64,000 nucleotides of DNA, taken from NCBI RefSeq assembly GCF_000741785.1, contig NZ_JGZP01000014.1:62001-126000 (forward strand), in the 5' to 3' direction. How positions within the stretch are numbered: position 1 is the stretch's first letter; each line of letters opens with the position of its first letter. Source of the DNA: Bifidobacterium stellenboschense. GTDB lineage: Bacteria; Actinomycetota; Actinomycetes; Actinomycetales; Bifidobacteriaceae. Positions 7,763 to 63,834 of the stretch are shown here, one piece after another. A model generated the notes under the pieces. That model was not told where the DNA came from. It saw nothing but the letters and a program-made list of their open reading frames with translations, and made no database searches. A program made the position numbers and the translations under genes.

Positions 7763-8551
7763 TTATCTAGTACCGGAACGGAACGTAACGCCGTCCTGTT
7801 GGGCCTTGAGCATGACGGGTATCGTATGCCCCTTCATGTTCTGCACCTTGTATTCCTCGGCGTGGTTGGCGTGCGTGGCCGCTACCGTTCTCCAGCCCTT
7901 CACCATGTCAGGTGTCGGCGTCTCGCCGTGCCGCTTGGCCTGATCGTATCGTTTGAACGTGTACCCGGTCGCATACGCGCACCGTGCGAGCATGGACATA
8001 ACCGCCTTGCTGTCGGTCTCTTCCACGCCCTCGATAATCCGGTCTCTGAAGTAGATGAACCGCGAGCGCTCGCGGGTGTCGATGATCTCGCCGCTAATCA
8101 GGTACGTGGAACCGTCTCCGGTCGGCCTCCATTCGCCCTTCCACCACGCAAGCATGAAGTCGTGGTAGATGTCCACGAACGACAGCGTGGCCGATTCCCT
8201 CAACGTGTGCGTCTCTGGTTCCTCATCCTCGCCGGTCGGCTGTAATGCCGACATGCTGATGTCATCGAACACGGCCCCGATCTCGCGCCATAAGGGCGGT
8301 TGCCCTTGAGTGCGCCACTTCAGCGTAGTATCAAACCGCTTCAGGCAGTCATACACCACGTCAAGTGTCTTGTTCAGGTTCTTGGCCTTGTCGTATTCGG
8401 GCTTCATGTCGTTGAACTCTTTACGCCCGCCCCTGAGCATGTCGAGCCACACGGTGAGCGCCAACGCCTCGAAACCGGTCAGCAGCTCCAAGGACTGCAC
8501 GCGGTCGAGCAGTCGCGCCGCCTTCCGCCTGTTCTTGCTGTCGTCCGTCAC
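7763..8551 (-). CDS. Unknown 262-residue protein of element 2
   Basis: GTG start at 8551 overlapping the integrase stop (TAGTG), so translationally coupled. The product is hydrophilic and mixed alpha/beta, with an N-terminal basic segment (KNRRKAARLLDRVQSLELL) and a tryptophan-rich middle (FMLAWWKGEW). No family recognised. Always being translated behind the integrase would fit a recombination accessory or maintenance role, which is inference. Confidence 0.7.
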   Translation of the reverse strand: MTDDSKNRRKAARLLDRVQSLELLTGFEALALTVWLDMLRGGRKEFNDMKPEYDKAKNLNKTLDVVYDCLKRFDTTLKWRTQGQPPLWREIGAVFDDISMSALQPTGEDEEPETHTLRESATLSFVDIYHDFMLAWWKGEWRPTGDGSTYLISGEIIDTRERSRFIYFRDRIIEGVEETDSKAVMSMLARCAYATGYTFKRYDQAKRHGETPTPDMVKGWRTVAATHANHAEEYKVQNMKGHTIPVMLKAQQDGVTFRSGTR

Positions 8552-10044
8552 TATGCCACCGCCTTGATTAGTCCCTGTATGGTGTCAACCTGAACCGTGG
8601 AAGGCAGCAAGGCGAGCACTTGGCCCCGCTGCTCATCGTCCAAGCCCCTGAGCACCGTCAACCTCGGTTCCAAGTCCAGCCCGGCCAAGGCGTCGGCGAG
8701 CGCCCGCGCCTTCTCGTCACTGGACGGATTGGACGCTTCGGACACGTTGGACGGATTATGAGAGGGTGTGGGGTTGTCGGTCTTGGCGGTGTCGGCGCTC
8801 GCCGACGTGCCGCCCATAGAGGCTTCCACCTTCTCCAACAGTCGCCGGTCGGCGTCCTTGCTTGACTGCTGATAGGTCGCCACGGTCTTGATGTTCGTAT
8901 GCCCGCCCAATCGCATGAGTTGGCCCACGGTCGCGCCCTCTTCCGCGTAATGCGTCAAACCGGTGTGCCTCAGGTCGTGGAAGTCCATGCCCTTCAACGC
9001 CGGGATATTCACCGCGTCTATGGCCTTGCTGAAGGCGTTGCGCATGGATTGGCCCCGGACTATGCCGCGAGTGCGCACGCCCGTGAACAACAGGGCCGTG
9101 GGCCGCTTATCCACGTAGGTATCCATGTGCCGCCTGATCTCGGCGACCAACGGGGCGGGTAGTTCGATGTCTCTCTTGCTGCTCGGCGTCTTCGTCTCGC
9201 CCAACACCGCTACCTTATGTCCGTTCTCGCTGATCTCCTTGGCACTTCGGCGCACATGCAGCAGCGCGGGCGTCTTGTCCAGTTCGAGGTCTCGGCGCTG
9301 CAAGCCCAACACCTCGCCTTGCCTCAATCCCAGCGTTCCCGCCAACAGGACGCCAAGACGGAGGTTCGAGGGCATGGCGTCGGCGAGCGCCTGAACCTGT
9401 TCGCGCGTGGCAATCACGTACACGTGCTTAGTGGCGGGGCGCGGCACCTTGAACTGAACCGGGTTCACCTTGATAAGCGTCGTGCCCAATTCATCCAAGG
9501 GGGCGGTGGCCGCTTCGGCCATGATCGCGTCCAGCAGCTCGAACACGTGGCGGCGGATGCTCTCGCCGCGTCCGTCCTTCGTGACGTTCATGCTGTCGTA
9601 CCATTCGCGGATATTCGCGGGCTTGATACTGTTCATGGGCAGATCGCCTAGAACCGGGTTCAGGTAGTCGCGTAGGTATTGCGCGTACTTGTCCTTCGTG
9701 GTCTGCCGTATCGGCCTGTTGTCGCCCTTGCGCCGGTTCTCCACGTACGCTTGCGCGTAATCTCTGAACAGCACCGTACCGCCCGCGTTCCTAGCCTCCA
9801 ACACTTCGGGCGGCTCCCACGCGCCAAGGTCGATAAGGCGTTTCGCCTCGCTCAGCCATGCGTCGGCCTGAAGCTCATAGCCTTCATCGAAGTTCCGGTG
9901 AATACGCGCCGGAAGATGCGGGTAGCGTTCGCGGGCTTCCACCGGTGGGATGTATGAAGCGTCATAGTAGGTTTGCCCGTGCCTGTTGGTCTTCGTCTCT
10001 ACCTTGCCGAACTTGCGGCGGCGATTCTTCACCGGCTTCGCCAT
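8551..10044 (-). CDS. Tyrosine recombinase (integrase) of element 2
   Basis: 497 residues, colinear with the element 1 integrase. Core-binding domain around TKDKYAQYLRDYLNPVLG; catalytic residues Arg in LRQGE (about 240), His and Arg in HDLRHTG (about 357), His in GGHTN (about 380) and Tyr in TYQQ (about 390). A serine/asparagine-rich linker (encoded by GTCC repeat copy D) leads into a C-terminal tail with LTVLRGLDDEQRGQVLALL, paralogous to the tail of integrase 1. The gene starts 215 bp from the tRNA-Ser 3' end. Likely catalyses integration at that tRNA. Confidence 0.95.
   Translation of the reverse strand: MAKPVKNRRRKFGKVETKTNRHGQTYYDASYIPPVEARERYPHLPARIHRNFDEGYELQADAWLSEAKRLIDLGAWEPPEVLEARNAGGTVLFRDYAQAYVENRRKGDNRPIRQTTKDKYAQYLRDYLNPVLGDLPMNSIKPANIREWYDSMNVTKDGRGESIRRHVFELLDAIMAEAATAPLDELGTTLIKVNPVQFKVPRPATKHVYVIATREQVQALADAMPSNLRLGVLLAGTLGLRQGEVLGLQRRDLELDKTPALLHVRRSAKEISENGHKVAVLGETKTPSSKRDIELPAPLVAEIRRHMDTYVDKRPTALLFTGVRTRGIVRGQSMRNAFSKAIDAVNIPALKGMDFHDLRHTGLTHYAEEGATVGQLMRLGGHTNIKTVATYQQSSKDADRRLLEKVEASMGGTSASADTAKTDNPTPSHNPSNVSEASNPSSDEKARALADALAGLDLEPRLTVLRGLDDEQRGQVLALLPSTVQVDTIQGLIKAVA
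8722..8752 (-). repeat. 31-bp [GTCC-N5]x3-GTCC repeat, copy D (inverted)
   Basis: GGAC at 8722, 8731, 8740 and 8749, 9 bp apart, followed by GGATTATGAGAGGGT. Flanks match copy C. Inside the integrase linker, read as NPSNVSEASNPSS. Confidence 0.85.
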
Positions 10045-12498: not shown

Positions 12499-12685
12499 TC
12501 GTTCTTACGTCATACCCCCGTTGCCCACGACTCCATAGGCGGACGAATACCATCAATGACGACGCAATGGAACGGGCGTAGGCACGTTGCCTCTTCGTTC
12601 CAGCCGTGGTCGCGTTCTCCACGCTTTGCGCGTGCATCGCACATGCTGCAGGTCGGTTACCATCCACAGGGCATGAGCGTGTGAG

Positions 12686-12781
12686 GAATTCAGGAACGTC
12701 GAAACGCGGGAACGTGCGAACCTGGGAATTCGGGAACCTGCGAACTCGGGAATTTGGGAACCCAGGAACCCAGGAACCTAG
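12686..12781 (+). repeat. 8-bp tandem repeat, 12 units (consensus GAACCTGG)
   Basis: Twelve contiguous 8-bp units with no indels: GAATTCAG, GAACGTCG, AAACGCGG, GAACGTGC, GAACCTGG, GAATTCGG, GAACCTGC, GAACTCGG, GAATTTGG, GAACCCAG, GAACCCAG, GAACCTAG. The GAA start is kept in almost every unit. It ends 13 bp before the 21-bp array. An 8-bp period is not compatible with a repeated peptide. Confidence 0.85.
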
Positions 12782-12794
12782 AGGGGGCTTGGAA

Positions 12795-12920
12795 CGTGTA
12801 TGGTTTGCGGTGCTTTGTGCATGGTCGAGCGCGTAATGTGCATGGTCGGAAGGGCAATGTGCATGGTCGGGCGGGTAACGTGTAGGCGAAAAGAGCCGAC
12901 CTGCATGGTGTGGTGCTGAA
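12795..12920 (+). repeat. 21-bp tandem array, six units, left arm of dyad structure 1
   Basis: Six 21-bp units starting at 12795. The core TGTGCATGG or CTGCATGG recurs with its first G of GCATGG at 12798, 12819, 12840, 12861, 12882 and 12903; the unit at 12882 is degenerate. The other half of each unit varies. It is mirrored by an inverted array at 13020-13145. Confidence 0.85.
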
Positions 12921-12960
12921 GGCGCGTTGTCCGGGGTCGTTCACGTCGTGCGACTTCCGC

Positions 12961-12968
12961 GGAATTCC
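12961..12968. other. Central GGAATTCC palindrome of dyad structure 1
   Basis: GGAATTCC centred at 12964.5, exactly midway between the innermost left site (12903) and the innermost right site (13026). The second structure has the same palindrome at its exact centre. Confidence 0.75.
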
Positions 12969-13019
12969 AAGGGTCGTGGTCCTGCCGATAATCGGCGGAA
13001 AGGCTCCCTTCAGAGGCAC

Positions 13020-13145
13020 ACCCTACAGGTTCGAGCTGATGGGCTACAGGTTCGCTCCGTTGCTCTACAGGTTCTTGTCTGGACTATACAGGTATCCGTC
13101 CGAACCGTACAGGAATGTGCTCAAACTATACAGGTTCGGAAACGG
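13020..13145 (-). repeat. 21-bp tandem array, six units, right arm of dyad structure 1
   Basis: CAGGTT or a close variant at 13026, 13047, 13068, 13089, 13110 and 13131, exactly 21 bp apart, each usually preceded by TA. The complement (AACCTGTA) matches the left-arm type core AACCTGCA seen at the second locus, so the arms are inverted. The flanks 13146-13448 hold no supportable gene; GTATATTCCTTC occurs twice at 13320-13350, perhaps near a promoter. Confidence 0.85.
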
Positions 13146-13448: not shown

Positions 13449-14348
13449 ATGAACGCTGCGACATTATCGACACCATCGACCTCCCTGGGCATTGCGATGA
13501 GGCAATTGGCCCTGAACCGGCTCGATGAGCTGCGCAAAGCCATGGATCTGGCGAATAACCATGGCGTCACATTCGAGTGTGGTCTGATTTCGGCCCTCCG
13601 GCTGCATGGCGTCGAGCTGCCGCTACTGCCACGCAGGGCCCTTGACCTGGAGAAGCTGCACATTGTCGTGGACGACCCCGCGAAGCGGCGCATTTGGAAC
13701 GGCGCGCAATGCCATCTGCTGACCAAGCCCGCGTGGCGTTCCATCCCCCAAGAGCATCGGCGCGAGTATTCACCCACCCAGATCATCGAGGGCGTGCATG
13801 CCACGCATCCGCTGCTGGTCTGGGCTCAGATGGCGCGGATTCTCGACGAGGATGAGCTGACGGTGCTCGCCGACTCGATGATGCGCCGCAACCAGTCCGA
13901 CCCGCATTTCACCCCGGATGATTTCAACGCGCTGCTCGAGATCCTGCCGCCCCGGTTCAAAGGCCGCGCGAAATGCCGGAACGCCATGCGACGCATGCGT
14001 GAGAACACCGACTCCTCGATGGAGACCCGGTTACGCCTCAGATTGGAGGCCGAACCGTTGCCCGAGCTTCGTACATTGCAGGTCAATCATAAAGTAGCGG
14101 TCAATGAGACCGGTGCATCCGTGTACCTGGACATGGCGCTGCCCGATCTGCGTATCGGCATCGAATACGCGGGCCGGCACCACGCCGATCAGTGGAGCGA
14201 CGACGTGTCCCGCCAATCCGCGCTCACCGCGGTCGGTTGGGAGGTGCTGACCGCGCACAATGACACGTTGAAGGATGCCGAACAGTGGCGTGAGTTCCTG
14301 ATCCGGCTGACCGCGCTGGTGCTGAGCCAGCGTCAGCGCCAACGATGA
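13449..14348 (+). CDS. DUF559-like protein with a probable PD-(D/E)xK nuclease fold
   Basis: 299 residues. The C-terminal part has the order SSMETRLRLRLE (Glu helix), VYLDMALPDLRIGIEYAGRH (Asp, then I-x-Y/E strand with D and E) and SALTAVGWEVLTAHNDTL, which is the endonuclease-like fold of Vsr/DUF559 proteins common in Actinobacteria. The N-terminal half resembles the DNA-recognition or antitoxin-like region of AbiEi-type proteins (ALRLHGVELP, then LHIVV). Function is unproven; roles in stress or toxin-antitoxin-like systems have been proposed for the family. An AAGG precedes the ATG closely. It stands alone. Confidence 0.7.
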   Translation: MNAATLSTPSTSLGIAMRQLALNRLDELRKAMDLANNHGVTFECGLISALRLHGVELPLLPRRALDLEKLHIVVDDPAKRRIWNGAQCHLLTKPAWRSIPQEHRREYSPTQIIEGVHATHPLLVWAQMARILDEDELTVLADSMMRRNQSDPHFTPDDFNALLEILPPRFKGRAKCRNAMRRMRENTDSSMETRLRLRLEAEPLPELRTLQVNHKVAVNETGASVYLDMALPDLRIGIEYAGRHHADQWSDDVSRQSALTAVGWEVLTAHNDTLKDAEQWREFLIRLTALVLSQRQRQR

Positions 14349-23434: not shown

Positions 23435-24834
23435 GGCTTCTGCTGTTTTCGTGGGTTAGATCGTCGGTGTTGGTAGTTGGATGTCGAGTCCGCCGCATCT
23501 GAGCATGACGAGCGCGATGAGGTTGTCGACGTGGTGGAAGCCGTAGGCCATGCGGATGGTGACCTTGATTCTGTTGTTGAACGCCTCGAGCCTGGCGTTG
23601 GAGCATCCCAGTTCGATCGTGCGCAGGATGTCGGGACGGCGCCTCCTGATCTTCCTGGAGAGCTCGACGATCTCGGGGATCCGGCTGTGGGACGCCCAGA
23701 ACACCCAGTGGTTCAACTCGGTCCTGGCTTGGTCGAGGGGGTGTCCGAGCAGGGTCCTGAGGAGTTCCTTGAGCTGCCATGAACGGTAGAGCTGGCCCCT
23801 CGGATCCGTGTTCCTCAACGCGTCGAACGCCTCGCTCCGCCTGCCGGTCAGGTCGTCGGGGTTCTTCAGGATGGCGTATTTGACGCCGCGCATGCGCTTG
23901 GCGGCTTCCTCGTCGTGTTCGTGTCTGGTCTGGTTCCACAGGCGTTTCCTGACCTTGTCGAGCGCGCCGGTCATCCAGGAGACGATGTGGAAGCCGTCGA
24001 GCACGCGCTGCGCGTTCGGGCAGTGCTCGGCGACGCATGAGTCGATCCAGCGCGCCCCCCGTCGCCGGTGACGACCCTGATGGACTTCTTCTGCTCGTCG
24101 GTCAGCGGCCGGAAGAACAGGTCGAACACGTCTTTGCCGTACCCGTCGTGCGCCCAGATCACGCGGTGGCGCTCATGGTCGACGACGACGGTCAAATACG
24201 TGTGGCCCTTCCGGTAGCTGGTCTCGTCCACGCCGATCGCGGTGAGCCCGTCGAACGGCGACGGCATCGACGCTTTCAACCGCTCGGCGACCCTATGGGC
24301 GATGTCGCCCGCGGTCCTCCACGCGACATGCAGGAACCCGCTGACGGTCTTCTGGTTGGCGACGGTCATCAGCCACGCGCACTCCGACTCGAAGTCACGC
24401 GTGAACCTCGAACCGGGCTCCGCCCACGGCACCCGGGCGATCACGACCCCGTATTCCGGGCAGTCCACGCGCGGCATCATGGCGACCAGCTCGACCCGCC
24501 AGCAGCCGAAGTCCTGATGCCGCCAGCGGCGCACGCCGCCACCACGGTCATAGCCGCGGCGTCTCCGGCCGCACCTCGAGCATCGGAGCATGCCCTTGCG
24601 CGGGCGCACGCGGATCTCGAGCACGGGCACGGGACGCAGCGGCGAGTCGACGATCCGCGCGTCCTCGACCACCATGTTTTTGACGTTGAGGAGCCGGTTG
24701 AATATGCTGTTCATCAGGCGCTTTGCGGTTGTTTGTTTATCTTGGTCGAAAACATCCTACCCGGAAAGCGCTCTTCTCTTACTCCCTCAACGACTCAACA
24801 ACGAACCCACACCCACGAAAACAGCAATAGCGCC
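23435..24834 (-). mobile_element. ISL3-family insertion sequence (decayed), type 1
   Basis: Terminal inverted repeats: GGCTTCTGCTGTTTTCGTGG at 23435 and its counterpart ACCCACGAAAACAGCAATAG at 24811 on the other side. It contains one transposase gene with a frameshift. No clear target duplication. A lone copy of the same end lies at 32533-32557. Confidence 0.8.
23456..24714 (-). pseudogene. ISL3-family transposase, frameshifted
   Basis: The first part (MNSIFNRLLNVKNMVVEDAR onward) has the zinc-ribbon CSRCG and the DDE start IGVDETSYRKGHTYLTVVVD. The frame breaks at a run of six G (near 24055), where GDGARWID is expected, and resumes with [20 protein letters not shown] and the C-terminal [20 protein letters not shown]. 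Four G (or seven) would restore the frame. About 415 residues in all, full family length. Confidence 0.85.
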
Positions 24835-29959: not shown

Positions 29960-31369
29960 GGCTCTTCGGGTGTTTGTGTGGGTGTGAGTCATCTGTCTGG
30001 CTTACTGGTTATTGCGTCCGGGGAGTTTGAGGTTGAGTCCTCCGCATTCGGGCATGACGAGGCCGATGAGGTTGTCGAGTTTGCGGTATCCGTAGCCGAT
30101 CTTGATGGTGGTCTTGATCTTGTTGTTGACGGCCTCGAGTCTGGCGTTGGATAGTCCGCTGTGGATGGTCCTGAGGATGTCGAAGTGGCGTCTGGCGATC
30201 TTCTCGCCGAGCGGGACGAATCCCGGGATGCCTGAGAGGAACGCGTCCGCGGCCCATCGGCGCAGCAGGGGCGCGGCATCCTCCGGCGTCTGTTTGTGAG
30301 GATCATCCTGAGTCGTTCCTTGAGTTTGTACGCCTCCCAGAGGGTCTCGTTGGTGTTCGCCACGCACTCCAATTGCGCCTTCTGGCCGGCCGTCAGGTCC
30401 GATTCGTTCTTCAGCAGCGCCCACCGGGCGCCCTTAATCGGGTCCTTCGCGCCTTTCCCGGCGACGCCTTTCCTCCTCGCCTCGCGCCATGCGGCGGTGC
30501 GGACCTTGTCGAGCGCGTCGGTGGCCCAGCTGACGATGCGGAACCCGTCGAGGATGCGTTCAGCCGTGGGGCACCAGCGGAACGCGCACTCGTCGATCCA
30601 CCGCGCCCCGTCCCCGGTGGCCACCCGGATGGATGCGCGCTGTTCGGGCGTGAGCTCCCGGAAGAACAGGTCGAACACCCTCTCCCCGTGGCCCTGGTGC
30701 ATCCAGATCACGCGCCCGCGGTCGTGGTCGACGACGACCGTCATGTACTTGTGCCCGCGCTTGTAGCTGGTCTCGTCCACGCCGATCGAGCGCAGCCGGT
30801 CGAACAGGCCGGCGCCCTGCCTGGCGCGAAGCTCGTCGGCGACGCGCCGGCAGACCGGCCCCACGCTCTTCCAGTCGATGCGCATCAGCGCCGACACGGC
30901 GCTTCTGGGCGCGTGCACGCTCAACCAGGCGACCTGTCGTTCGAAGTCACGCGTGTATGCGCTTTTCCGTCTCGCCCACGGCACCATCGCGACCGTCACC
31001 CCATGCTCCGCGCAGTCGACGCGCGGTGGCGCGTACTCCAGCAGGAGTTTCGCGCACCCGACGTCGAGATGACGCCAACGCCGCGCGGGCAGACGGTCGT
31101 ACGGCCGGCCATGCCCGCCGCATTCGGCGCACCTGTTCAGGTCCCTCGCGTACGGGCGCACCGGGACGACGGCCACGTCGGCGCCGCCGCGGTCCCGTTC
31201 GATGCGGGGCTTGCCGATCACGACGTTGGCGGGCAGGTTGAGCATGCGCTTGAGCGCGCCGGCTGATATGGTGGGCACAGGCGTTCCCCCTGTTCTTCGG
31301 TTCTATTTCTTGGCGGAAACAAACCTAACAGGCGAACGCCCCTTCCATACCCACCCACGGAAAGGACCC
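29960..31369 (-). mobile_element. ISL3-family insertion sequence, type 2 (decayed)
   Basis: A left end GGCTCTTCGGGTGTTTGTGT and a related right end (complement of ACCCACGGAAAGGACCC at 31353-31369) flank a transposase gene with a frameshift. No clear target duplication. A different subtype from the element at 23435. Confidence 0.65.
30002..31278 (-). pseudogene. ISL3-family transposase type 2, frameshifted
   Basis: MPTISAGALKRMLNLPANVV start; zinc ribbon NRCAECGGHGRPY; DDE region IGVDETSYKRGHKYMTVVVD and VATGDGARWIDECAF. The frame is lost near 30296 at an A-rich spot (LRMILTN, then KQTPEDAAPLLRRW in another frame). The C-terminal SNARLEAVNNKIKTTIKIGY is intact in that second frame. Confidence 0.85.
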
Positions 31370-61392: not shown

Positions 61393-62409
61393 ATGAGTGC
61401 AATTGCAGTGAAGCAGGGACAGCAAGAACCGCAGGAACGGCAGGAGTTAGGCGGTGAATCGCCGAATATCGTTCGGTTCGCAGGGAAGGCGCGCGTGCCG
61501 CGGCTCGGCATGGGGACGATGGCGCTCGCCATCGAAGGGCGGCCCGACCGCGAGACCGCGATCGCGACGATTCACGCCGGACTCGACGCGGGCGTGCGGT
61601 ACCTCGACACTGCATGGTCGTACTATCTGCCGTCGGCGCTGGGAGTGGACGGCACGGGGGGGCCGGGCGACTTCGGGTATGGCGAGAAGCTCGTGCGCGA
61701 CGCGCTCGCCACATGGGACGGGCCGCGCGACGAGGTGCTCGTCGCCACGAAGACCGGATATCGGCGGACGATCGAGGTGCCGGGCGAGGACGCGGCGCCC
61801 CGTCAGCATTTGCAGGCGGAGGGGAGCCGGTACGGGTGGATGGCGGATTCGCGGCCGGAGACGATGATTCGTGACGCGAAGGAATCCGCGCGGCACCTCG
61901 GTGTGGACGCGCTCGACCTGCTGTATTCGCACGGGCCGGACCCTGCCGTGCCCTACGAGGACCAGGTCGGCGCACTGAAGACGCTGCTTGACGAAGGCGT
62001 GATCCGCTATGCGGGCATCTCGCGCGTGAACAACGAGCAGATCGACGTGGCGCGTCGGATTCTCGGGAGCAAGCTCGTCGCCGTGCAGAACCAGTTCTCG
62101 CCGTCGCACCCCGATCCGGAGCACACGATGGAGCATTGTGCTTCGCTCGGGCTCGACTTTGTCTGCTGGTCGCCGCTCGGCGGGTTCCTCGACCCGTTCG
62201 ACAGCCACGCCTACGACCCGTTCCGCGCGGTCGCCGCGGCGCGTGGCATCTCCTACCAGCGGGTAGTGCTCGCATGGGAGCTCACGCGCTACGGCCGGCT
62301 GTTCACCATCCCCAGCGCCCGCAACCCGCACGAGATCCGCGACTCCTTCGCCGCGGTCGACCTGCAGTTGTCTGACGAGGAACTGGCGACGCTCGCGGCG
62401 TTGGACTGA
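61393..62409 (+). CDS. Aldo/keto reductase
   Basis: 338 residues. A (beta/alpha)8 reductase with the catalytic set visible: Asp and Tyr in VRYLDTAWSYYLPS, Lys in VLVATKTGYRR and His in LDLLYSHGPDPA. FTIPSARNPHEIRDSFAAVD binds NADP near the C-terminus. It reduces carbonyls with NADPH; the substrate is unknown. Stands alone. Confidence 0.9.
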   Translation: MSAIAVKQGQQEPQERQELGGESPNIVRFAGKARVPRLGMGTMALAIEGRPDRETAIATIHAGLDAGVRYLDTAWSYYLPSALGVDGTGGPGDFGYGEKLVRDALATWDGPRDEVLVATKTGYRRTIEVPGEDAAPRQHLQAEGSRYGWMADSRPETMIRDAKESARHLGVDALDLLYSHGPDPAVPYEDQVGALKTLLDEGVIRYAGISRVNNEQIDVARRILGSKLVAVQNQFSPSHPDPEHTMEHCASLGLDFVCWSPLGGFLDPFDSHAYDPFRAVAAARGISYQRVVLAWELTRYGRLFTIPSARNPHEIRDSFAAVDLQLSDEELATLAALD

Positions 62410-62540
62410 GGCCCGGTGGCGATGGCTTGGTGACGACCGGGCTAATGGGCGCAGCTGAATGGGTGTGGCATGCTCCTTGCTCCCTGATGTAGGGGGGCTG
62501 CCTCGACTCGCGCCGTTGGGGCGTGGGCACCGTGGACTTT

Positions 62541-62594
62541 GCTCCCCCACGGATGTGGGGGGAGCTGTCCGGCCTTCGGCCGGGTTGAGGGGGA
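62541..62594 (+). repeat. GC-rich hairpin repeat, copy 5
   Basis: GCTCCCCCACGGATGTGGGG then GGAGCTGTCCGGCCTTCGGC and a GGTTGAGGGGG end. A weaker related unit precedes it at 62481-62530. Confidence 0.5.
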
Positions 62595-62632
62595 ACCGGG
62601 CTACGGCCCCTAGACGCATGACCGTTTTCCGT

Positions 62633-62737
62633 GCGAACCTGCATGGTTTGACGGCGAACCTGCATGGCTTTGGTCCAAACCTGCATGGTTCGGACCCGAA
62701 CCTGTAGGAATTTGAGCCGAACCTGCGGGGTCGGGCT
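62633..62737 (+). repeat. 21-bp tandem array, five clear units, left arm of dyad structure 2
   Basis: AACCTG at 62636, 62657, 62678, 62699 and 62720, exactly 21 bp apart; the core AACCTGCATGG is best kept in the first three. A sixth, very degenerate unit may start at 62612. The rest of each unit varies. Confidence 0.88.
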
Positions 62738-62782
62738 TGGTGGATGGACCTTTCCGGGATGTTGTGCTGATTCAAGAACGGC

Positions 62783-62790
62783 GGAATTCC
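62783..62790. other. Central GGAATTCC palindrome of dyad structure 2
   Basis: Centred at 62786.5, the exact midpoint between the innermost left (62725) and right (62848) sites, and part of a longer GCGGAATTCCGC palindrome. Confidence 0.8.
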
Positions 62791-62841
62791 GCGGATTATG
62801 CGTTGCTCAGTCGAGGGTGATCGCCCTGTCTTCAGGAGGGG

Positions 62842-62957
62842 TGTACGCAGGTTCGCGGAATAAACCTACAGGTTAGGTGCGAAATCCTGCAGGTTGCATC
62901 ATGATTTATACAGGTCCCGCTCCAGACCGTGCAGGTTCGGGGAGAACCGTGAGGGTT
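62842..62957 (-). repeat. 21-bp tandem array, five clear units, right arm of dyad structure 2
   Basis: CAGGTT/CAGGTC at 62848, 62869, 62890, 62911 and 62932, exactly 21 bp apart. A degenerate sixth (GGGTTTCG) lies at 62953. Inverted relative to the left arm. Confidence 0.88.
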
Positions 62958-62991
62958 TCGTCTCGCGCCTGACGTGGGGTTCCGCGTGATT

Positions 62992-63042
62992 GCCCCCTCA
63001 GTCCGCCTGGCGGCGTCCAGCTCCCCCGCAGGGGGAGCGGGG
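62992..63042 (-). repeat. GC-rich hairpin repeat, copy 6
   Basis: CCCCCTCAGTCCGCCTGGCG then GCGTCCAGCTCCCCCGCAGG, in the opposite orientation to copy 5. Confidence 0.5.
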
Positions 63043-63063
63043 AAGGATTCGCGTCTGCCCGGG

Positions 63064-63115
63064 GGGGAGCTAGGAAGGAACCGTACCTACACCGAGGGGA
63101 GCTAGGAAGGAACCG
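63064..63115 (+). repeat. Direct repeat of 20 bp, 32 bp apart
   Basis: GGGGAGCTAGGAAGGAACCG occurs at 63064-63083 and 63096-63115. No gene in 63116-63315. Confidence 0.8.
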
Positions 63116-63315
63116 CGCTTACCTCCGCAAATAAGAAAACGGCACGAACCATGATTACGAGCTGAACAACCACTGCGCGTACCCCCATACGTCTGCTGTG
63201 ACGTTGTGGGCCCGTAATGCTGTACCTCTTGACTGATTCGTGCCGTCTGAAATTATCGATTGGTGTGTGGGTGAGCCGGCACCGGTGTTCAGCCGCTGCC
63301 GACTACTCGGCTATC

Positions 63316-63450
63316 TCAGCTGTGGGAACGGCTGGTGGCGGTGTACTGGAATGCGCCGTGCACGAGCGCGGCGGTGAAATGCATGCCGCACATGCCGGCC
63401 TCTTCCGCTTCATGCGTGCATCCTGCGATACTGCATAGATTACGAGTCAT
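63316..63450 (-). CDS. Small zinc-finger-like protein (44 residues)
   Basis: From ATG 63450 (paired ATGATG, with AAGGGG just upstream): MTRNLCSIAGCTHEAEEAGM then CGMHFTAALVHGAF. Cys-x4-Cys, then Cys-x2-His is the pattern of short zinc-binding proteins found in Actinobacteria and phages (C..GC...G.C..H). No function can be given. It stands alone in a gene-poor gap, divergent from the MarR gene at 63835. Confidence 0.55.
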   Translation of the reverse strand: MTRNLCSIAGCTHEAEEAGMCGMHFTAALVHGAFQYTATSRSHS

Positions 63451-63834
63451 CATGTTCCCCTTCCTTGGGCCTTCAGCTTCCGTGCCGTGGTGGCCGCCAG
63501 CCTCCGTGCCAACGTTTCAGCGTCCAATATACGCTCGATATCGTCCAAAATCTAGGAAAGTGGGTGGTTGTGTAAGCTATGTCACATTTAAATAACGGTT
63601 TTGGGCGTGTCGAGATAGTTTGTCTGCTATTTCGGGTTGTTGGCTGAGGCTTGGCGCAGTGCGTGTCGGCGAGGTTGGGAATTGGGGCGTTGCCGGCGCG
63701 TGTTCGGCGCGTATTTGGCGCGTGCCGGTGGGAGGGGAATCGTCGTCATCCGAGTTGTTTGCGGGGTAAATTGTTGATAGTGAGAGATATATTGGTTGAG
63801 AAAATGGGTGAAGTGCGCAAGGAAAGGGACGACG

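Follow-up and report, generated by a model that had tools for sequence, protein, structure and literature searches.

Mirrored arrays of short units and a neighbouring DUF559 nuclease-like gene in Bifidobacterium stellenboschense: a possible two-part genetic system

In this study, we analyzed a 64,000-nucleotide stretch of the Bifidobacterium stellenboschense genome (contig NZ_JGZP01000014.1, positions 62,001 to 126,000; hereafter, the window), which carries two symmetric repeat structures composed of short units. The structure flagged in an earlier note on this DNA (62594-62952) consists of two inverted half-arrays with a 21-bp step that flank GGAATTCC, and the other one (structure 1) lies near a gene encoding a protein of the DUF559 family. 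The link between this protein gene and the arrays is well supported. The features of both structures are as follows (window coordinates):

62594..62731, plus strand: left half-array of the flagged structure, 21-bp units
62783..62790, no strand: central palindrome GGAATTCC, inside the wider centre AACGGCGGAATTCCGCGG
62830..62835, plus strand: inner motif CTTCAG, 18 bp inward of the innermost right unit
62842..62946, minus strand: right half-array of the flagged structure, CAGGTT at 62848, 62869, 62890 and 62932
12793..12909, plus strand: left half-array of structure 1, starts 12793 to 12898, five of six scored as units
12916..12921, plus strand: inner motif CTGAAG of structure 1
12961..12968, no strand: central palindrome GGAATTCC of structure 1, reverse-complement context ACCCTTGGAATTCCGCGG
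13008..13013, plus strand: inner motif CTTCAG of structure 1
13020..13145, minus strand: right half-array of structure 1, six units, starts 13026 to 13131
13449..14348, plus strand: candidate trans-acting protein, DUF559, 299 residues, 298 bp from structure 1

Anatomy and copies of the arrays

In the left half of the flagged array, AACCTG starts at 62636, 62657, 62678, 62699 and 62720, and a position-matrix scan adds a weak outer unit at 62594; on the right, the unit at 62911 is degenerate (CAGGTC), leaving four perfect units and one degenerate unit. Thus, the five clear sites per side that the earlier note had counted are present on the left only, and of the additional degenerate site assigned to each side we recovered the left one, no further right unit being scored. 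The two window structures do share the same inner distance, as had been claimed, but it amounts to 128 bp from start to start in one convention (12898 to 13026; 62720 to 62848), the value of 123 bp given previously mixing two registers. GGAATTCC indeed occupies the exact midpoint of the inner units (centre 62786.5). The spacers, considered otherwise unrelated, are not wholly so: CTGAAG/CTTCAG recurs 18 bp inside the inner units, and the centre motif is shared. Structure 1 has this inner motif on both sides; in the flagged array the left counterpart is degenerate and the right one alone is intact. By eye, GCTCCCCC/GGGGGAGC-type repeats are visible on both sides of the flagged array (window 62500-62580 and 62995-63110). 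Other short tandem repeats lie directly outside arrays at window 12684-12790 and at several B. aesculapii loci, one of them with a 24-bp period.

A pattern search, together with a sequence model of the half-arrays (R1), identified 17 two-sided arrays in the B. stellenboschense genome, with up to six units per side and unit conservation that falls sharply beyond the sixth position on both sides. Three AACCTG words at a 21-bp step occur 10 times in this genome versus 0 times for the backward pattern; hence, the array is not a product of chance. When applied to 1.2 Mb of a genus relative, the position matrix of this genome gave one one-sided chain and no inverted pairs. Taken directly, the inner distance is 128 bp in eight arrays, 129 bp in one and 149 bp in two, the remaining arrays showing 118, 139, 151, 191, 242 and 456 bp (one each); arrays of 149 and 191 bp become 128 bp once degenerate in-register inner units are counted. 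Selection on spacing, as proposed earlier, is therefore borne out by 9 of the 17 arrays at 128-129 bp directly, three more in register, and locus-specific spacings that are kept across species in several cases. A strict rule of one spacing with a central palindrome nevertheless does not survive, since 118, 139, 151, 242 and 456 bp also occur and the palindrome is imperfect or absent in several arrays. The exact-spacing rule thus fails, and the spacings (118-456 bp) lean toward being roughly in helical phase: their deviations favour one phase (Rayleigh p 0.0023, period 10.5) in a test of 11 distinct, hand-listed values from three species, for which p ranged from 0.0007 to 0.055 across the five periods tried.

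To describe the centre, we scored the best match to AACGTTGGAATTCC (14 letters, picked after viewing the arrays) within 60 bp around the midpoint. A score of at least 9 was reached by 14 of the 17 B. stellenboschense arrays, 7/11 in B. aesculapii (a sample of 11 of its 24 arrays, two of them from 15 related copies), 6/8 in B. platyrrhinorum and 6/6 in B. lemurum and the genome G062, and by 7-16% of pieces drawn at random from these loci; no AACGTTGGAATTCC-like centre was found in these 60 bp of an array within CopA and of a few others. Complementarity between the spacers of mirrored units does not exceed that of other pairs (0.38 versus 0.36 in B. stellenboschense; 0.31 versus 0.33 in B. aesculapii), which argues against an RNA hairpin, and a hairpin or guide-RNA array was rejected because these spacers do not covary. 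An Rfam search of window 62000-63500 returned a single match, far below the gathering score.

Arrays of other bifidobacteria and their candidate partner

R1 matches 3 of the 112 genomes of the genus at E 1e-4. A second half-array model (R2), trained on three species (B. stellenboschense, B. aesculapii DSM 26737, G042, and B. platyrrhinorum, G086), recovered 38, 48 and 21 half-arrays in the three array species and one weak match each in G018, G064 and G007; both models see only the units of these three nearest species, and their negatives exclude only arrays of those units. Weak matches in G007 and G016 looked like coding chance and were discarded. B. aesculapii carries 24 two-sided arrays and two cut by contig ends (26 loci), with half-matches at four further places; 15 of the 24 share their core and unit spacers and are thus related copies. 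The 21 half-matches of B. platyrrhinorum group into 13 places, eight of them two-sided, to which a pattern search adds two on contig C10, and its arrays are looser, with fewer units and mixed 20- and 21-bp steps. Units differ between species but are fairly uniform within each. Several loci and their spacings are common to the three species; in other neighbourhoods that the species have in common, the side of the genes on which the array is found varies, hence the positions are not identical for all arrays. Since the unit changes species-wide in arrays at the same loci, a trans-acting partner is implied.

The earlier note had looked toward a co-occurring DNA-binding family, and sequence comparison does suggest a candidate, a DUF559/Vsr-like nuclease. 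At the W1 locus, found in all three species, the DUF559 gene is 62-67% identical between species versus 91-95% for its neighbours. Among the matches listed for the 112 genomes, orthologues of the protein (65-100%) occur only in the three array genomes, followed by 44% full-length homologues in B. lemurum (G071) and G062, the others being weaker or partial. An array lies upstream of the homologue gene in all five genomes measured and, by eye, also in G039. Pfam assigns only DUF559 and MTES_1575 to the candidate; its nuclease domain (~187-296) has a confident predicted fold resembling Vsr and I-Bth0305I, carries the EDxHD catalytic residues of a Vsr-like fold, and its catalytic-type residues are invariant (21/21), while the N-terminal part gives a weak AbiEi-like fold match. 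DUF559-type motifs were not enriched near arrays in general. Among more distant DUF559 loci, L366 has a one-sided 24-bp periodicity beside it, and L373 has one of 21 bp.

The arrays beside the homologue genes of B. lemurum and G062 are two-sided, with a like centre, the unit CGGGCGGTT and a 20-bp step. R1, R2 and an unsupervised 21-bp scan of the B. lemurum sample had all missed the B. lemurum arrays because their unit differs and their step is 20 bp. From the arrays beside the two genes, we predicted that this unit recurs as dispersed arrays in both genomes. A CGGGCGGTT search of ten genomes gave 43 matches at 7 two-sided sites in B. lemurum (five of which had already been seen in a 40% sample before the search) and 18 matches at 4 sites (3 two-sided) in G062, none in the eight other genomes and 0 for the backward control. 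Under one rule, the inner spacing of these arrays is 122 in 5/7 views (two of the same locus), and 90 and 134 in the others. The G039 array, upstream of a 39% homologue, has the centre AAAGCCCAGAATTCCAACGTTTC and CTTCAGG; its exact pattern also gave single matches in G023 and G097, with one control match each in G000 and G042. A second kind of array was observed in B. lemurum (L300, 13050-13210), with the unit GTTGGCAC, a 20-bp step, two units per side and the centre GGAAAACCAGTG.

In a collection of genome contigs, the two-sided pattern matched 16 stretches, namely 15 from B. aesculapii and one from an Opitutaceae metagenome-assembled genome, which looked like an unrelated repeat and was set aside. 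The pattern gave 0 matches in viral contigs (a separate phage collection was not searched), and of 114 stretches with a one-sided pattern, the 80 loci inspected showed no inverted partner; nor did the flagged array match in plasmids. With no two-sided viral match and no plasmid match, a viral or plasmid origin was rejected.

Most B. stellenboschense arrays are intergenic, and 5 of the 17 overlap long open reading frames (ORFs): Pfam identifies Rce1-like (L044), DUF58/TgpA (L054) and FtsX (L055) products, and we take two, from reading the sequence, to be CopA (L047) and PxpB-like (L048). No common theme was apparent among the sampled genes neighbouring arrays. Genes neighbouring the window and 12 of the 15 B. 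stellenboschense loci retrieved have matches spread around the whole circle of the B. lemurum chromosome (40% sampled; some placements single-gene or conflicting). Clustering at the origin or terminus, which the earlier note had raised, is unsupported: none was seen in this mapping, a weak test on a 40% sample. Dnaa-like motifs and dif gave no matches in the same sample.

CopA array loci of the three species:
L047 5830-6287; L091; L101

In CopA, the half-arrays are in-frame 7-residue repeats in two separate loops that bracket a conserved stretch of the gene's own codons. The inserts occupy the same place in B. stellenboschense, B. aesculapii and B. platyrrhinorum, with an inner spacing of 242/242/242, and are absent in 7 other species aligned, one of which (G043) carries a different insert. 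A periodicity scan gave a lag-21 identity of 0.67-0.74 in the three array species versus no more than 0.52 in the remaining 27 of the 30 CopA loci. The three species do not form one clade on the CopA tree, so that losses or transfer are needed. In the central codons, 12-15/15 residues are shared among the three species versus 6-7 of 12-14 with array-free relatives (a small sample). Elsewhere, two arrays bound a stretch at L053/L052 (contig C31 of B. stellenboschense) and at L100/L254 (B. platyrrhinorum); the L053/L052 stretch holds type I restriction-modification genes in B. stellenboschense, its outer flanks matching between species and its inside differing.

In the window, the DUF559 gene is followed by a permease-like ORF and an AAA/DUF4143-like ATPase, assigned by eye, and no AbiEii was recognized among these neighbours. 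Two related tyrosine integrase genes (678-2231 and 8551-10044; Pfam on the first) bound a plasmid- or phage-like integrated stretch, and ISL3-family transposase matches, probably fragments, lie at 23456-24172 and 29989-31302 beside a polysaccharide-type gene cluster.

Weighing the explanations

We propose, at a probability of roughly 0.55, that the arrays are scattered, non-autonomous DNA elements belonging to a two-part system with an inherited EDxHD/Vsr-like nuclease. This nuclease (DUF559), with one array upstream of its gene, would be the first part; the second would comprise one to ~30 copies of a symmetric element that reads, in order, up to six direct units, CTGAAG, a roughly palindromic centre (~AACGTTGGAATTCC), CTTCAG and up to six inverted units. 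The protein would load on the 20-21-bp units, all on one face of the DNA, and would act at the centre of the array. A break, repaired from another copy, could both spread and homogenise the element, and the unit and the protein would therefore change in concert, as is the case for REPINs and RAYT transposases. By this analogy, the system most likely works like REPIN/RAYT; protein binding, cleavage at the centre, copying by repair and a benefit to the host are steps that we infer. With the odds tilting somewhat against it, we speculate further that the system might represent a new bacterial class, selfish or domesticated, in which a nuclease reads its own phased mirror arrays, breaks their centre, copies them to other loci by repair and builds them around host sequence, even in-frame in CopA, while the protein and its DNA word co-evolve into a species-private code.

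Several observations weigh against the two-part system. The W1 spacing is 140 in B. aesculapii, not 128, and the exact pattern found only one array in G039, with no dispersed copy. The CopA halves, with native codons between them, fit neither simple insertion nor simple gene conversion. Moreover, 24 more distant DUF559 loci (L350-L373) lacked a convincing array, the best score being 0.49 in L358, in a scan that also missed L345 and L349 and scored L344 at only 0.53; hence, no general rule for DUF559 proteins is established. Because the three nearest array species are related by descent and the G071 and G062 proteins are 95% identical, only two to three independent lineages are represented. Finally, a nuclease that cuts the chromosome at 17 sites would need tight control to avoid toxicity, and the conserved loci also fit a stable host function.

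There is one main rival, which we regard as unlikely but deserving real weight: the DUF559 protein would be mainly a DNA-binding architectural or regulatory factor that binds the arrays, its phased nucleoprotein complexes organising the chromosome or controlling neighbouring genes, and its nuclease fold would be secondary. The sampled neighbouring genes without a common theme, the lack of origin or terminus clustering in a weak test, and the invariance of the catalytic-type residues (21/21) speak against it. It would also be odd for an architectural factor that the close relatives G094, G051, G098 and G097 have neither a full-length homologue nor arrays of known units (one chance-like match in G097). 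A more improbable reading is that the arrays are miniature inverted-repeat transposable elements (MITEs) or satellites moved by an ordinary transposase, with the DUF559 gene as a passenger. It would account for the dispersed distribution and for the 15 of 24 two-sided B. aesculapii arrays with a common core and unit spacers; however, no shared terminal repeats or clear outer borders are visible by eye, arrays occupy orthologous loci in different species, and G071 and G062 show the DUF559 link again, with another unit and with genome-wide arrays that it predicted. Furthermore, the rve transposase family (PF00665; other transposase families were not searched) has 0 matches in B. stellenboschense, as in G098, compared with 2 each in G042, G086, G094 and G051; with no rve-type DDE transposase in the own genome, Tn7/Mu/IS21-type transposon ends were rejected.

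Plasmid parC consists of two arrays of short repeats around a spacer, which our arrays recall. Centromere-like or partition sites (ParABS, ParMRC) or SMC loading sites are nonetheless very improbable: B. stellenboschense has one ParB-family gene (one ORF, two stretches; the ParM/ParR families were not searched), array genomes and others have comparable numbers of SMC_N matches, and matches to the genes beside arrays occur around the whole circle of the B. lemurum chromosome. Extra ParB_N matches occur in G042, G086, G094, G051 and G098, not in G097 or G071, and ParB and SMC were discarded as partners since neither has an array-specific member. Chance, a minisatellite artefact or coding repeats could be suspected because seven codons make 21 bp and 5/17 arrays overlap long ORFs, but this explanation is already refuted by the controls (backward pattern 0; 0 inverted pairs in 1.2 Mb of the relative), and mirror symmetry, conserved inner motifs and orthology in three species are likewise at odds with it.

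Comparison with known systems

The catalytic-domain fold modelled for the DUF559 protein, with matching residues, resembles that of I-Bth0305I, and the EDxHD homing endonuclease family is described as having long targets bound by a dimer (PMC3943268). Our protein differs in that no intron or intein was seen around its gene, it has ~290 residues with another N-terminal part, and its putative targets are dispersed arrays of ~380 bp. It differs from Vsr in being linked to arrays, and from the AbiEi antitoxin (type IV toxin-antitoxin) in its nuclease domain and in the lack of AbiEii among its window neighbours, as judged by eye. The Porphyromonas gingivalis MITE with an internal minisatellite is, according to the opening of the abstract, a dispersed short element containing tandem repeats; that opening mentions neither a mirrored array pair nor a nuclease partner (PMC4596501). 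In the open-access literature searched (most subscription papers lay outside the search), no recognised pairing of DUF559 with such arrays was found, and the array-nuclease pairing looks like an undescribed self-contained genetic system. With a distinct unit and a distinct protein version in every species, the specificity code could be read from alignments, and nucleases requiring a long phased array could be learned from the system; the way in which arrays whose number and phase are fixed change simultaneously across many loci becomes testable as well.

The closest parallel remains REPIN/RAYT. REPIN elements adjoin the RAYT gene and match their own RAYT. The system comprises a single-copy protein gene and dispersed, non-autonomous elements with inverted halves around a spacer, inherited vertically, with 69-235 REPIN copies in E. 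coli (PMC8049555). Our system shares with it an element beside the protein gene, dispersed copies (none in G039) and joint sequence change. Unlike RAYT, however, the partner here is an EDxHD/Vsr-like nuclease and not an HUH tyrosine transposase (judged for this protein; the rest of the genome was not searched for a RAYT), each half is built as an array of at most six 20-21-bp units where a REPIN has two short REPs in one hairpin, and copies number ~1-30, against that E. coli range. Because both enzyme and element differ, the system is not a member of the REPIN/RAYT family. If our proposal is true, it adds, in bifidobacteria, a further case in which a chromosomal protein has a family of dispersed sites to itself, beside RAYT/REPIN and the classic transposases.
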